Position numbers and translations under genes: made by a program. Of a DNA stretch of 64,000 nucleotides, positions 49,890 through 56,216 are shown piece by piece. Each line of letters opens with the position of its first letter. Position 1 is the first letter of the stretch. Below the pieces are notes generated by a model. It was not told where the DNA came from and searched no databases. It worked only from the letters and a program-made list of their open reading frames with translations. Source of the stretch: Muribaculum sp. An289 (GTDB lineage Bacteria > Bacteroidota > Bacteroidia > Bacteroidales > UBA932); assembly GCF_002159555.1 (NCBI RefSeq), contig NZ_NFIV01000004.1, positions 1 through 64,000 on the forward strand, read 5' to 3'.

Positions 49890-50708
49890 TCACTGCTTTC
49901 TGTAACGAGCTATTCCGCCAGCTATGGTGTTTATAATGATGTATGCCGTGGAGAATGTGCAGATGCCTCCTGCCAGTGCGTGGAGGAAGCCGTCTGCGAG
50001 GAAGGTGAGGAGTACCGCGATGCCGGCAACAATCGGAGTGGCGAAAATGGCAATCAGTGCGGCCCGTGAGCCGTATGGCTGCTGTCCGGAAGCCCCTGCT
50101 TCATCCTGTGCCCCGTCCCGTGTCCCGTTGCCCTGTGTCCCGGAAGCTTTGGAAAAGCTTTTCAGCGAGGCCATCGGAACGCGACTCAACATCAGCCTGC
50201 AAGCTATGTAGACTATGGCCGGCATGGCTATGAAGCTCCTTGCCATCAGGTTGTGAATCCAGCCGATTTCATATAAATCCATAATTGCTGCCACCGAGCC
50301 GATGAACATTGCGGCGGCCGGTACAGGGAGGCCCCTGAAGCCGTGTGCCTGCGTTTCGTCGGTGTTGAATTTGGCCAGTCTCAATGCGGCGCAAGGCACG
50401 AGCAGCAAAGGTATGTAGGTGAACCATAGCGGCCCTATGAAGTTTTCCTGCATCATGTAGAAGAGCATCAGCGCCGGAAGGGTGCCGAAACTTACGAGGT
50501 CGGCGAGGGAATCGAGTTCCTTGCCTATGGCCGAGTAGGCTTTGAGCCCGCGTGCGGCCGCGCCGTCGAGCACATCGAACAAGGCTGCCGCGAGCATCAG
50601 CACGAAGGCACAGCCGATATCGCCTTTAGCCGCGTAAATAATACCGAACACTCCTGAAACAAGGTTCAGGAGTGTTATCGTATTTGGTATATGTCTTGAT
50701 AATCCCAT
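49890..50708 (-). CDS. pssA: CDP-diacylglycerol-serine O-phosphatidyltransferase
   Basis: A 272-residue CDP-alcohol phosphotransferase. The catalytic signature D-x2-DG-x2-AR-x8-G-x3-D-x3-D is present between about residues 45 and 70 (DVLDGAAARG and GKELDSLADL), and the SFGTLPALMLF segment after it is typical of phosphatidylserine synthase. About seven membrane segments. A hydrophilic Gly/Gln/Ala-rich insert (about 192-217) lies between membrane segments, longer than in most relatives. It makes phosphatidylserine, the precursor of phosphatidylethanolamine. The upstream C1 peptidase gene is 23 bases away. Confidence 0.9.
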   Translation of the reverse strand: MGLSRHIPNTITLLNLVSGVFGIIYAAKGDIGCAFVLMLAAALFDVLDGAAARGLKAYSAIGKELDSLADLVSFGTLPALMLFYMMQENFIGPLWFTYIPLLLVPCAALRLAKFNTDETQAHGFRGLPVPAAAMFIGSVAAIMDLYEIGWIHNLMARSFIAMPAIVYIACRLMLSRVPMASLKSFSKASGTQGNGTRDGAQDEAGASGQQPYGSRAALIAIFATPIVAGIAVLLTFLADGFLHALAGGICTFSTAYIIINTIAGGIARYRKQ

Positions 50709-50731: not shown

Positions 50732-51910
50732 TTATTTGATACCGAGTTTCTTCTTGATATCCTTAGGAATGGCGTCCTTGTGGACGATGATGTTCATGGT
50801 CTTGTACCTTACGAAGGCATCGGATGCATACCATATCCCGTGGTATTTTCCTGCATCACCCCATGAGTTCTTCACCATGAAGTACCTGTTGCCGTCCTGG
50901 TCTTCGGCGATACCGTAGATGAGCATTCCGTGGTCATCGGTTGTAGTCTTGTTGTCATAACCGATCTGGCGGAGTTCCTGGGTGATTTCGAGCTCGGCAG
51001 GGAGGAGTTTTTCAGGCTGTGCCTCTTCCGATTTTCCTACCCATTTTTCCTGGTCGGAACCGGCTTTCTTCGCCGCTTCGTCGACTACAACGGCGATACC
51101 GTCACGGGTAAAGCCCCTTTCGCTCACATCCGAACCCCATGCGATGGTGTATCCCTTGTCGATGGAGTTGTACATGATTTCCATCATGTCATCGAGAGGT
51201 ACGTTGTATGAGAAATCCCATCTCCAGTTGTCGCATATTTCGAGAACGAACTGGGAGTAGAACGGATGATGGTTGTATGATGTAATGGATACATAGTCGT
51301 CAGGATTGATTCCGAGGCTTTCTGCAAAACTCTTAGGGGTATATTCCTGTCCCTGATATGTGAAGGTTTCAGGATATTCTCCGAAATAAGCCGCAAGGAT
51401 ACCGTCGAAACCGCGCTTCCATGCAGTCGAGAGCTTGCCGTTAGGGCGTTTTGCGATTTCCTGGACGTATGCCAGTGTCACGGCGTCGATTTCACCGTGT
51501 ACAGGCAGTTCTTCACCGTAATTGAATCCCGGCATGGCTTCCTGCGGCACGATGCCGTAGTCATTGATTACATGGAGCACGTCTTCGCATGAAGAACCGG
51601 CTGAAAAATTGAATTTGCCGTCCATGCGTACATATTTCACGGCCCTGTCCGAGTATGAGTGGGAAACGACGAACATTTCTGAAAGGTCATGCTCTCCCTT
51701 GCCCATCCTGATGAGCTCTGACTCTATGAATGCAAGGCCGGAAAAACACCAGCAGGTGCCGGACATGTACTGGTTCTTGATAGAAGTGATAGGAAGTTCC
51801 TTGATGGTAGTGAACTGATATTCAGGTTCTCCCTTTTGCGGCTCCTGGGCCATTGCACCGAAAGAAATTGCCGACAGTAACGCGGCTGCGGTAATCGATT
51901 TCAAATACAT
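50732..51910 (-). CDS. Secreted C1B (bleomycin hydrolase-type) cysteine peptidase
   Basis: A 392-residue exported papain-fold peptidase of the C1B aminopeptidase family. Signal peptide to about residue 21 (AMAQ). The Cys is in MSGTCWCFSG, the His in DDHGMLIYG and the Asn in VKNSWGD. Relatives in Bacteroidales digest peptides in the periplasm. It precedes pssA with a 23-base gap. A minus-strand -7 box at 51993-52000 gives a leader of about 75 bases. Confidence 0.88.
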   Translation of the reverse strand: MYLKSITAAALLSAISFGAMAQEPQKGEPEYQFTTIKELPITSIKNQYMSGTCWCFSGLAFIESELIRMGKGEHDLSEMFVVSHSYSDRAVKYVRMDGKFNFSAGSSCEDVLHVINDYGIVPQEAMPGFNYGEELPVHGEIDAVTLAYVQEIAKRPNGKLSTAWKRGFDGILAAYFGEYPETFTYQGQEYTPKSFAESLGINPDDYVSITSYNHHPFYSQFVLEICDNWRWDFSYNVPLDDMMEIMYNSIDKGYTIAWGSDVSERGFTRDGIAVVVDEAAKKAGSDQEKWVGKSEEAQPEKLLPAELEITQELRQIGYDNKTTTDDHGMLIYGIAEDQDGNRYFMVKNSWGDAGKYHGIWYASDAFVRYKTMNIIVHKDAIPKDIKKKLGIK

Positions 51911-51992: not shown

Positions 51993-52021
51993 CAAATATA
52001 AGCATTATTTTTGTAAATTTG
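51993..52021. promoter_or_regulatory. Divergent promoter region between the C1 peptidase and the antiporter
   Basis: Minus-strand TATATTTG at 51993-52000 faces the peptidase gene. On the plus strand two -7 candidates, TATTTTTG (52006-52013) and TAAATTTG (52014-52021), lie one after the other, 33 and 25 bases before the ATG at 52047. No -33 element is clear for any. Confidence 0.45.
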
Positions 52022-52046: not shown

Positions 52047-54374
52047 ATGTATTTGACAGCCGGTAATTTCATTCTCATAGCTTCGATAATAATTTTTGTG
52101 GCCTTGCTCGCGAGTCGTGCAAGTTTCAAATTCGGTGTCCCCGTCCTCCTTCTTTTCCTTTTTACGGGGATGCTGTTCGGGTCGGACGGACTCGGACTTC
52201 AGTTCAACGACATGAACCTTGCCCAGTTCATCGGAATGGTCGCCCTGAGCATCATCCTGTTTTCCGGCGGAATGGATACGGATTACAAGAGCATCAGGCC
52301 GGTGCTAGCCCCAGGTATCGCCCTGTCTACCGTAGGGGTCCTGCTCACGACGTTAATCACCGGAGTTTTCATCTATTTCCTCTGCAACAGGCTTTTCGAC
52401 ATGGCGGGATATACTCTGGTATTCTCGCTGCTGCTTGCCGCCACCATGTCGTCCACCGATTCCGCCTCCGTCTTCAATGTGCTCAGGAGCAGGAAAACAG
52501 GGCTGAAGCACAATCTGAAGCCTCTCCTGGAGTTCGAGAGCGGCAGTAACGACCCTATGGCCTATATGCTGACAATCGTGCTGATACAAATACTTTTGGG
52601 TGACAATTCCTCTTTCGGCTCGATTGTACTTACCTTCTTCGCCCAACTCGCCATCGGCGCGCTGGCCGGTTTCGGCATGGGAAAGGCGGCCGTGTGGATT
52701 ACAAATAAAATCAACCTGCATTATTCGTCGCTGTATCCCATACTGATGCTCTGCATCATATTTTTCACCTTTTCGATTACGGATTTGATTAAGGGCAACG
52801 GCTATCTCGCGGTCTACATAGCCGGCATGGTCGTGGGGAACAATCCTTTGGTAAACAAACGGGAGACGACGAAATTCCTCGATGGCATGACCTGGCTGTT
52901 CCAGATAGTGATTTTCCTCACCCTCGGCCTGCTCGTGAACCCGTCGGAGATGCTTCCGATAGCCGTGCCGGGCCTGCTGATAGCCATTTTCATGATTGTC
53001 GTGGGCCGTCCGCTCAGCGTTTTCCTGACAATGCTCCCGTTCAGAAAATTTTCTTTCAAGAGCAAGCTCTATGTTTCATGGGTCGGCCTGAGGGGTGCGG
53101 CTCCGATAATTTTCGCGACATATCCTGTCATAGAGGACGTCCCGGGAGCCCGCAACATATTCAATATCGTATTTTTCATAACCCTCGTCTCGCTGCTTGT
53201 CCAGGGCACTACCGTGAATTATTTCGCGAAGACGTTGAAACTTACCGCCGCGACTCCGAAAGAGGGGAATGACTTCGGGGTGGAGCTGCCGGAAGACCTG
53301 AAATCCAAAGTCTGGGACATAACGGTGGACGAAAAAATCCTTTCGAACGGGCCTCTGCTGATGGACGTCGGCTTCCCGAAAGGGGTACTTGTCATCATGG
53401 TAAAACGCGGGGACGATTATAAGGTGCCGAACGGGGACATGAGCCTTGAGGTGGGGGACAAGCTGCTCATGCTTTCAGCCGACGAGCAGTTCATACCGGA
53501 TAAGGAAAATATTTCTCCGGAGGCTATAGAAAATTATATGAGAATTTTCCCGGAAGGCCAGTTCTGCCCTCTCGATACGGTAGAGCGTCAGCGGCCTGAT
53601 AGGGATTATTACGTCATCCTTTACATACACGGTATGGGAGGGGGAGGAGACAGCCGTATTCCGTCCATACTTTCCGAAGAATTGCCGCAGGACAGGTACC
53701 ATGTAGTCGTAAGGACTTATTCCTTTGATCCGGACGAGGCCTACGGCCAGATTGCTTCATGGATGGAAGAACTCAAGCCGGACCTCATAGTCGGCGAGTC
53801 CCTCGGGGCCGTACAGGCTATCCGCATCAAAGGTTTGCCGCATATTCTTGTTTCCCCGTCGCTCAATGCCCCTCTGTATCTTTATGCGGCCTCTTTCCTC
53901 GTATGGATTCCGGGACTGCGACTGTTGCTGGAAAAGATTTACAGGCCCAAGCCGGGAGACCGTCAGGAGCTGCATTTCAAGGCGAAGATACTGCATTCGT
54001 ACCGCGATCACCGGGCACGCGCGCTCATGCGTTCGCCGAAAATGCTCGGAGACCGTGCCGATTACTTCTTTGCATTTTTCGGGAAGAAAGACCACTACCG
54101 CCGCAGCGGGATAGTATCAATCGCGACTTACGAAAAATATTTCTTCCATAGCCGTAAATGCCGGTGCCTCGTCCCTGACCGTGATAACGCCGGAGGAGGG
54201 GCGGCTTATCCGACTTATGCGATATATCCGGGAGGGCATTTCATGGAAGAAGAACATGTCCGTACGCTTCTTGCTCCGAAAATCATGGAAGTGCTTTCCG
54301 GCTTTGTCACCGGTTCATCCGATCACTCGGGTTCCAGTCACTCGGATTCCAATCACTCAGAACGGGAACAGTAA
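52047..54374 (+). CDS. CPA1 sodium(potassium)/proton antiporter fused to TrkA-C and an alpha/beta hydrolase
   Basis: A 775-residue fusion. Residues 1-395 are a CPA1/NhaP-type antiporter with about 12 membrane segments and the ion-site motif FESGSNDP (163-170). Residues about 405-485 look like a TrkA-C (RCK-C) domain. A linker follows. Residues 520-755 are an alpha/beta hydrolase: YIHGMGGGG (527-534) as oxyanion loop, the nucleophile Ser585 in VGESLGA, a likely Asp682 in FFGKKDH and His731 in PGGHFMEEEH. The hydrolase resembles YqiA/UPF0227-type esterases. The C-terminal tail is a Ser/His repeat. The 3' end overlaps the convergent SLC13-type gene by 18 bases. Reading frame is open throughout, so the join is not an obvious frameshift artefact. 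Confidence 0.82.
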   Translation: MYLTAGNFILIASIIIFVALLASRASFKFGVPVLLLFLFTGMLFGSDGLGLQFNDMNLAQFIGMVALSIILFSGGMDTDYKSIRPVLAPGIALSTVGVLLTTLITGVFIYFLCNRLFDMAGYTLVFSLLLAATMSSTDSASVFNVLRSRKTGLKHNLKPLLEFESGSNDPMAYMLTIVLIQILLGDNSSFGSIVLTFFAQLAIGALAGFGMGKAAVWITNKINLHYSSLYPILMLCIIFFTFSITDLIKGNGYLAVYIAGMVVGNNPLVNKRETTKFLDGMTWLFQIVIFLTLGLLVNPSEMLPIAVPGLLIAIFMIVVGRPLSVFLTMLPFRKFSFKSKLYVSWVGLRGAAPIIFATYPVIEDVPGARNIFNIVFFITLVSLLVQGTTVNYFAKTLKLTAATPKEGNDFGVELPEDLKSKVWDITVDEKILSNGPLLMDVGFPKGVLVIMVKRGDDYKVPNGDMSLEVGDKLLMLSADEQFIPDKENISPEAIENYMRIFPEGQFCPLDTVERQRPDRDYYVILYIHGMGGGGDSRIPSILSEELPQDRYHVVVRTYSFDPDEAYGQIASWMEELKPDLIVGESLGAVQAIRIKGLPHILVSPSLNAPLYLYAASFLVWIPGLRLLLEKIYRPKPGDRQELHFKAKILHSYRDHRARALMRSPKMLGDRADYFFAFFGKKDHYRRSGIVSIATYEKYFFHSRKCRCLVPDRDNAGGGAAYPTYAIYPGGHFMEEEHVRTLLAPKIMEVLSGFVTGSSDHSGSSHSDSNHSEREQ

Positions 54375-56216
54375 CGGCAGTACGAAGACCATGACTATGC
54401 CCATGATGATTTGCAGCGGAAGCCCGACTTTGATGTAATCCATGAATTTGTATTGTCCGGCAGGCATGACGAGGGCATTTGGCGGTGTGGAGAACGGCGA
54501 AGCGAAGCACATGCTTGCTCCGACCGCTACCGCGAAAAGGAGGGGCACAGGGCTTATGCCCATCTGTGCGGCACTCTGCATGGCTATCGGGGCGAGCAGT
54601 ACGGCTGTCGCCGTGTTGCTGATGAACATTGTCATCAGTGATGTCGTAAAATAAATCCCCGCCATCAGTGCGATGGGGCCGTAGCTTCCGAGCCCCTGGA
54701 CAAGGGTGTTCGAAATCCAGGCCGAAGCTCCGGTCTTTTCGAGTGCGAGCGACATGGGCATCATGGCGGCAATCAGCACGACACTTTCCCAGTTGATAGT
54801 CTTGTATGCCGCTTCCACATTGCGTATGCAGCCGGTAAGTACCATGAGGATGGCGGCAATCATGACAGCCGTTACCGGTTCCACAGGGATGAAGTCGAAT
54901 ACCATCATGGCCACCATTAGCAGCATTATGACACCTGCTACCGGCGCCTTGTAGTCGAGGGTCACTTTCGCGGCTTCTGCGAGTGGCTGGCCGAGAACGA
55001 CCCAGTCCGCATCCTCTTTGTTCAGTCTGGCTATGTTGGCCCAGCTACCCTGTACGAGCATGACGTCACCTCCGTGGACCTTTATGTCTCCGAGGTCGTG
55101 CAGGAGGTATTCGCTCTTTCGCCGTATGCCCAATACGTTGATATTGAATTTTCCCCGCAGGTCTATGTCCTTGATGCTTTTGTTTATGAGTCCCGAAGTC
55201 GGCACGATGATGATTTCCGCTATGCCTATCTCATAGAAATCCAATGAATTGCCTTCCTGAATCTTCACGGCTTCTTCGGTATGGTGTCCGTCAAGGATGT
55301 CAAGCTTGCACTCCCCCGCAAATCTCCTTACTTCATCGAAATTTCCGGATACGTACAGTATGTCCCCGTTTTCGAGTGTAGTCTCCGGGGAGGTCAGCTG
55401 GGTGATTGTTTTCAGGAAGCGGTAGCGGGACGAGTCCCCCCTGCGGATTTCCATTATGTTCAGTCCGAATCTTCGGCGTATGTCGAGTTCGATGATGGAT
55501 TTCCCTATGACGGTGGAATCGCTGCACACCTCGACCCTGAACAGGTTGCTTGCAAGCCCGTATTCCTTTACAAGCTGCTGGAGGCTCTTGCCTCCCGTCC
55601 CGGCATTCTTTTTCTTCTTGCCGCTGAGGAATATCTTGCTTAGCGGCATCAGCACGAGGATTCCTACGGCCACGCATATGAGGCCTACGGGCAGGAACGA
55701 GAAGAACGAAAGCCCTTCGAGGCCTGCCGAAACGAGGGTGTCATTGATTACAAGGTTGGGAGGAGTACCGATGAGTGTCATCATTCCTCCCATGCTGCTT
55801 GCAAAGGCCAGCGGCATCAGGAAACGGCTCGGGGACACATTCGCGCTTGCGGCGAGGCTCACAACTATAGGGAGCATCAGTGCCACTGTACCGGTATTGC
55901 TTACGAATGCCCCTATGGCCGATGTGACGAGGATGACCAGAAGGAACAGCCTTGTCTCGCTCTTTCCGGCAAGCCGTAATATCTTGGAGCTTATCATCTT
56001 GGCCAGTCCCGTCTGGAAAATCGCCCCTCCGACCACGAACAGTCCTATCATCATTATCACGACCGAGTTGGAAAATCCGGACAGGGCTTCTTCCGGTGTC
56101 AGTATCTGGCAGACAAGCAGCGCGACAAGGGCGCAGAGTGCCACCAGGTCCGAGCGGATTTTCCCGTTTACGAAAAAAATCGCTGAAAGTACAAGTATGC
56201 CGATTGTTATCCACAT
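54357..56216 (-). CDS. SLC13/DASS-type permease with two TrkA-C domains
   Basis: A 619-residue transporter. Two membrane halves (about 1-195 and 410-619) enclose two RCK-C/TrkA-C domains (about 215-305 and 320-400). Each half has a family motif: VSNTGTVALMLPIV and MTLIGTPPNLVINDT in the first, FISNTATAVLLAPI and ASPFSTPPNALV in the second. Members move dicarboxylates, sulphate or other anions with sodium; the substrate is unknown. TrkA-C domains suggest gating by a cytoplasmic ligand. It is the last of a minus-strand run reaching back towards hut genes and its end overlaps the antiporter gene. Confidence 0.88.
   Translation of the reverse strand: MWITIGILVLSAIFFVNGKIRSDLVALCALVALLVCQILTPEEALSGFSNSVVIMMIGLFVVGGAIFQTGLAKMISSKILRLAGKSETRLFLLVILVTSAIGAFVSNTGTVALMLPIVVSLAASANVSPSRFLMPLAFASSMGGMMTLIGTPPNLVINDTLVSAGLEGLSFFSFLPVGLICVAVGILVLMPLSKIFLSGKKKKNAGTGGKSLQQLVKEYGLASNLFRVEVCSDSTVIGKSIIELDIRRRFGLNIMEIRRGDSSRYRFLKTITQLTSPETTLENGDILYVSGNFDEVRRFAGECKLDILDGHHTEEAVKIQEGNSLDFYEIGIAEIIIVPTSGLINKSIKDIDLRGKFNINVLGIRRKSEYLLHDLGDIKVHGGDVMLVQGSWANIARLNKEDADWVVLGQPLAEAAKVTLDYKAPVAGVIMLLMVAMMVFDFIPVEPVTAVMIAAILMVLTGCIRNVEAAYKTINWESVVLIAAMMPMSLALEKTGASAWISNTLVQGLGSYGPIALMAGIYFTTSLMTMFISNTATAVLLAPIAMQSAAQMGISPVPLLFAVAVGASMCFASPFSTPPNALVMPAGQYKFMDYIKVGLPLQIIMGIVMVFVLPLLFPF

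Follow-up and report, generated by a model that had tools for sequence, protein, structure and literature searches.

A predicted potassium/proton antiporter and a putative YqiA-like hydrolase encoded as one gene in Candidatus Merdivivens

Introduction

Can an ion antiporter and an esterase-like enzyme be two parts of one protein, and if so, how did they come together and what may the enzyme do there? The question is raised by a 64,000-nucleotide stretch of contig NZ_NFIV01000004.1 (hereafter the window), where a single open reading frame at 52047-54374 of the plus strand runs from ATG to TAA over 775 residues. The combination of an antiporter with an RCK_C (TrkA-C) domain is of the known NhaP2/YcgO kind, and the esterase-like hydrolase tail appears from the sequence to be the new element. 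The locus is a clean natural example of a transporter gaining an enzyme tail, in which related genomes reveal where the enzyme gene originally lay, how it looks when separate, and that the fusion took place once. With it the YqiA-like enzymes, a neglected family, would be placed at the membrane and beside a phospholipid-synthesis gene, which gives a hint at the substrate. Should the two halves be coupled, one polypeptide would allow the study of an esterase controlled by ions, or of a gate formed by an enzyme domain; and if the RCK_C domain and the hydrolase do communicate, this would be a transporter-enzyme of a kind of which we know no description.

Results

Layout of the locus and the antiporter half

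The features of the locus are listed below with the basis of each assignment in brackets.

52047-54374, plus strand: fused gene, predicted CPA1 K+/H+-type antiporter, RCK_C (TrkA-C), linker and alpha/beta hydrolase (ORF, Pfam, NCBIfam, presence in congeners)
52095-53225, plus strand: transmembrane exchanger domain, residues 17-393 (Pfam, motif alignment)
53358-53477, plus strand: core of the TrkA-C (RCK_C) regulatory domain, residues 438-477 (Pfam, NCBIfam, alignment with relatives)
53499-53603, plus strand: linker, residues 485-519 (comparison with free antiporters and free hydrolases)
53604-54317, plus strand: alpha/beta hydrolase domain, residues 520-757 (alignment, model, Foldseek)
54300-54371, plus strand: Ser/His-rich tail, residues 752-775, species-specific (comparison with congeners, repeat search)
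50732-51910, minus strand: C1-family peptidase, divergent neighbour of the fused gene (Pfam, neighbourhood comparison)
49890-50708, minus strand: putative CDP-alcohol phosphatidyltransferase, pssA-like, in the conserved block (named from sequence)
54357-56216, minus strand: CitMHS/DASS-type transporter with TrkA-C domains, convergent to the fused gene (ORF, Pfam)
52006-52013 and 52014-52021, plus strand: two adjacent TAnnTTTG matches before the fused ATG

Residues 17-393 were assigned to Na_H_Exchanger by Pfam (E 7e-51) and residues 438-477 to TrkA_C with 27.1 bits, barely at the cutoff of 27. NCBIfam placed residues 6-481 in the potassium/proton antiporter family NF003716 (579 bits, cutoff 355), and the RCK_C region aligned with the corresponding region of antiporter relatives. 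Asn168-Asp169 (52548-52553) correspond in the alignment to the ND pair of MjNhaP1, and the exchanger domain retains its arginine motifs, GRP and LRG. The N-terminal part is thus a predicted CPA1 K+/H+ antiporter of the NhaP2/YcgO type; the exchanger and RCK_C domains of NhaP2/YcgO (CvrA), the PRK05326 group, are likewise present in it. Two archaeal NhaP exchangers of known structure, MjNhaP1 (4czb) and PaNhaP (4cz8), resemble the fused protein in transmembrane sequence and share its ND motif, but to our knowledge have neither RCK_C nor a hydrolase. Ordinary antiporter relatives in Bacteroidota have frames mostly of 480-540 aa, whereas the fused protein has 775. E. coli YcgO has a cytoplasmic C-terminal region with a putative RCK domain and, at the end, a putative CorC domain, the likely contact of unphosphorylated PtsN, an inhibitor of the antiporter (PMC11808508); in the fused protein RCK_C is followed by the alpha/beta hydrolase instead.

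The hydrolase half

Abhydrolase_6 was matched by residues 524-649 with 20 bits, under the Pfam cutoff of 26.3. The structure model of the hydrolase had pLDDT over 90 at 200 of 270 residues, and its Foldseek matches were esterases and lipases. Yersinia YqiA (4fle) came as the third match with a target-normalised TM-score of 0.72, the best among the matches listed, and other alpha/beta hydrolases were comparable to it by Foldseek E-value. With a confident model and such matches, the predicted alpha/beta fold of the C-terminal part can be regarded as confirmed with sufficient certainty.

An antiporter, a TrkA-C domain and a complete alpha/beta hydrolase in one frame, as proposed in the initial annotation, were therefore borne out by ORF analysis, Pfam, NCBIfam, the model and Foldseek. 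The triad it had called plausible, Ser585 (53799-53801), Asp682 (54090-54092) and His731 (54237-54239), was found invariant in 88/88 homologues. In the model the three residues lie at canonical positions after the expected strands, with the serine in a nucleophile elbow, as in alpha/beta-fold serine hydrolases. Fused and separate hydrolases alike have a hydrophobic lid helix, at about residues 606-629, and a variable loop is inserted at about 701-719 in the alignment. At residues 667, 700 and 730, the separate hydrolases have near-constant Gly, Gly and Thr, and all three fused copies have Leu, Phe and Gly; residue 730 adjoins the catalytic His.

Weak UPF0227 matches were obtained by Pfam for 17 of 75 homologues (best E 0.0026, the cutoff not being reached), and the window protein gave none. 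A PDB sequence search with the hydrolase profile returned chance FtsZ matches and one esterase at E 0.33, nothing else. We regard the domain as a putative, distant YqiA/UPF0227-type enzyme. Esterases of this type (YqiA/YcfP) are one-domain serine hydrolases of about 200 residues, and a compact YqiA-like fold is predicted here as well, but the sequence similarity of the fused-type hydrolase clade to them is weak, and the clade is marked by a HGMGGGGDSRIP motif of its own and by the hydrophobic lid. A Pseudomonas enzyme of the YqiA/YcfP family cleaves short p-nitrophenyl esters (PMC13230378).

Conservation in the genus

The genus sample consisted of three Candidatus Merdivivens (Bacteroidales) genomes with the window included, two of them being M. 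pullistercoris and M. pullicola. As the genus has three species at NCBI, the window would by elimination probably belong to the remaining one, M. faecigallinarum. The fusion was uninterrupted in all three, with lengths of 745, 751 and 775 residues, and each genome had one antiporter copy and one hydrolase copy, both in the fusion. Pairwise protein identity was 92-95% in the membrane domain and 82-87% in the hydrolase. Where computed, dS between species pairs was at least 1.0, so that synonymous sites are saturated or nearly so. The dN/dS values were 0.02-0.05 for antiporter pairs and 0.037-0.046 for the sole computable hydrolase pair, the window against M. pullistercoris (L061); values are lacking for the two other hydrolase pairs and several linker and RCK_C pairs, most likely because of saturation or a shortage of codons. 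The joint frame is old and under purifying selection, since it is conserved in three species with low dN/dS at high dS. A stop near residue 505 or a pair of separate genes in close relatives, both envisaged in the initial annotation, were not seen within the genus, and separate genes occurred in a different genus only.

The downstream convergent transporter and the next gene, FprA-like, are conserved in the genus as well. In M. pullistercoris (L061/L142), the peptidase-pssA block upstream of the fusion is inverted compared to the window and M. pullicola.

Separate hydrolases and the origin of the fusion

A search for the hydrolase in 399 genomes of the family gave strong matches only in the genus of the window and in one other, which judging by named loci and matching contigs would be Cryptobacteroides. 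The separate Candidatus Cryptobacteroides hydrolases (L063-L140) have 49-65% identity to the fused one, with the same triad and the same neighbouring genes. They are stand-alone genes of about 210 residues with their own start, likely an ATG that precedes the first strand by a few codons, just before LYIHGMGGGGDSRIP, whereas the fused hydrolase is the tail of an antiporter. Their gene order was pssA< C1pep< hyd> (arrowheads giving the direction) in 61 of 78 loci, and one more locus had the peptidase and hydrolase only; the median peptidase-hydrolase gap in these 62 loci was 83 nt. The window has the same order, pssA<, C1 peptidase<, antiporter-hydrolase>, with the antiporter exactly between the block and the hydrolase, and a peptidase-antiporter gap of 136 nt.

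None of the separate hydrolase loci fetched had an antiporter within 5 kb, which rules out adjacency of the two genes as the Cryptobacteroides state, and those antiporter loci that were fetched for other genera were without the hydrolase. In the 35 Cryptobacteroides genomes where both genes were matched, they were on different contigs (lists compared by eye). The count of fused against separate genes called for in the initial annotation thus gave 3/3 fused in Merdivivens and, in Cryptobacteroides, separate genes with no antiporter nearby. We also looked for the donor site of the antiporter by its conserved neighbours in other family members, none of which were common with the window.

In a tree of 64 sequences, the three fused hydrolases made up one clade with support 100 and a long stem. 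Since this clade is fully supported, the fusion arose once, before the species split. The antiporter would have landed between peptidase and hydrolase, because the separate loci keep the same divergent neighbours without it. These gene orders are most simply explained by insertion of the antiporter gene 5' of a hydrolase gene that had kept its ancestral place. We propose a single rearrangement in the Candidatus Merdivivens ancestor, which would have brought an NhaP2/YcgO-like gene into the short divergent region between C1 peptidase and hydrolase and removed the antiporter stop and the hydrolase start.

Rarity of the fusion

Sampling across the phylum comprised approximately 1,180 Bacteroidota genomes (399 for the family, 395 for the phylum and 393 for the order, partly overlapping), and no further antiporter-hydrolase fusion was found among them. 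The antiporter was present at E <= 1e-60 in 265 of the 399 family genomes, and the fused frames among the approximately 150 best matches listed were the three Merdivivens only. At E <= 1e-30 it was present in 54 of the 395 phylum genomes, where none of the other antiporters was fused to the hydrolase. Several longer frames were rejected. The long antiporter frame of G184 was on inspection a 427-residue ORF; those of G920 and G1015 had tails of about 100 residues without a Pfam family match, not a hydrolase; and the hydrolase frames of G379, G322, G306, G400 and G416 were read-through or had normal starts, no fused domain being seen. A literature search with narrow terms found no description of an antiporter-hydrolase fusion.

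Outside the family, hydrolase relatives in the 393 order genomes were, by eye, distant 200-residue proteins or fusions with other domains. Three distant YqiA-like frames from other Bacteroidales (L169, L173 and L178), of about 340-380 residues, appear by eye to have a HAD-type-phosphatase-like C-terminus ILYIDLDDTLVDF. In L168 (G478), a YqiA-like domain is followed by leucine-rich-repeat (BspA-like) sequence in a frame of 533 residues, also by eye.

Linker and internal starts

The linker of about 35 residues, which has low model confidence, matched no antiporter tail and no hydrolase N-terminus among the free proteins. It would be new sequence, because free antiporter relatives end at about residue 486-511 in the alignment. 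No start codon inside 480-530 was common to the three Merdivivens species: an ATG stands at codon 498 in the window species and GTG at 512 and 523 in L061, and L062 is free of ATG, GTG and TTG between codons 473 and 530. A complete hydrolase domain therefore cannot start alone there in L062, and at least in this species its separate production is unlikely. Since the three species have no internal start in common, the cell probably makes the hydrolase solely in the form of an antiporter tail, which would be anchored to the inner face of the membrane.

Discussion

We propose that the product is one bifunctional inner-membrane protein. Its N-terminal half would exchange K+ (or Na+) for H+ under the control of RCK_C. 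The C-terminal half, as an active YqiA-like serine esterase, would be tethered to the cytoplasmic membrane face through a flexible linker, with lipid or acyl substrates within possible reach of its hydrophobic lid. A fusion protein with largely independent antiport and esterase halves, derived from a single rearrangement, is the reading we prefer, with a probability of about 0.6. Both halves probably work, because the exchange-site motifs are intact and every catalytic residue is conserved. The cytoplasmic position of the hydrolase is suggested by analogy with E. coli YcgO. That the substrate is a lipid or an acyl ester is no more than a reasonable guess, made because the lid is hydrophobic and a phospholipid-synthesis gene lies in the ancestral neighbourhood. 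Independent activities are favoured over coupling because the enzyme arose apart from the antiporter and has its catalytic set complete. On the other side, the RCK_C score is just at the Pfam cutoff.

The domain after RCK in YcgO is a regulatory partner site (PMC11808508), which makes a different reading reasonable: the hydrolase domain could be a regulatory module behind RCK_C, gating exchange via an acyl or ester ligand or via its catalytic state. It occupies the place of the YcgO CorC domain, whose proposed contact with PtsN affects activity (PMC11808508), the linker is short, and the arrangement was kept through the divergence of three species. However, the full catalytic set includes residues that a mere ligand sensor does not need, and the separate homologue works elsewhere with no antiporter nearby; we hold such a module to be possible, at odds of about one in four. 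The full-length model was confident in the hydrolase and uninformative on domain contacts, the antiporter being poor because only three sequences covered it. Somewhat more tentative still is communication between RCK_C and hydrolase, by which cytoplasmic pH or K+ may set the hydrolysis of a membrane lipid or acyl compound, or that compound may gate exchange. The two roles put forward in the initial annotation, ion state coupled to ester hydrolysis and the hydrolase fold as a ligand sensor, are possible readings of this kind.

Cutting of the linker or use of an internal start would give two ordinary separate proteins. The low model confidence of the linker, its likeness to neither parent and the start codons in the window species and L061 are in accordance with this, but no protease site was identified, the species have no start in common and L062 lacks one altogether, so we consider it improbable compared with the bifunctional protein. 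That the hydrolase half is a dead passenger is very improbable: the inserted loop and the changes that every fused copy has at the three near-constant positions, Thr to Gly at residue 730 among them, could speak for decay, but dN/dS is about 0.04 in the computable pair, and the triad and other motifs are kept. An assembly or frameshift artefact, conceivable in a genus of draft assemblies of which the two named ones are metagenome-assembled, is ruled out by the two congeners, as the same join occurs in three species-level genomes assembled separately, with synonymous sites at or near saturation, and the exclusion of an assembly join, suggested as a check in the initial annotation, was thereby achieved.

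Tail and upstream matches

Residues 752-775 are found in the window species only and are absent from both congeners. A 15-bp tandem repeat of 2.7 copies at 54318-54358 extends the fused C-terminus into the convergent transporter gene, the two genes overlapping by 18 bp. The suspicion in the initial annotation that this Ser/His-rich tail is recent and overlaps the convergent transporter agrees with these observations, and the tail is recent sequence, probably without function. The matches to TAnnTTTG, the -7 element of Bacteroidota promoters, lie upstream of the ATG by 41 and 33 nt; in both congeners they were found at -40/-42 and -32/-34.
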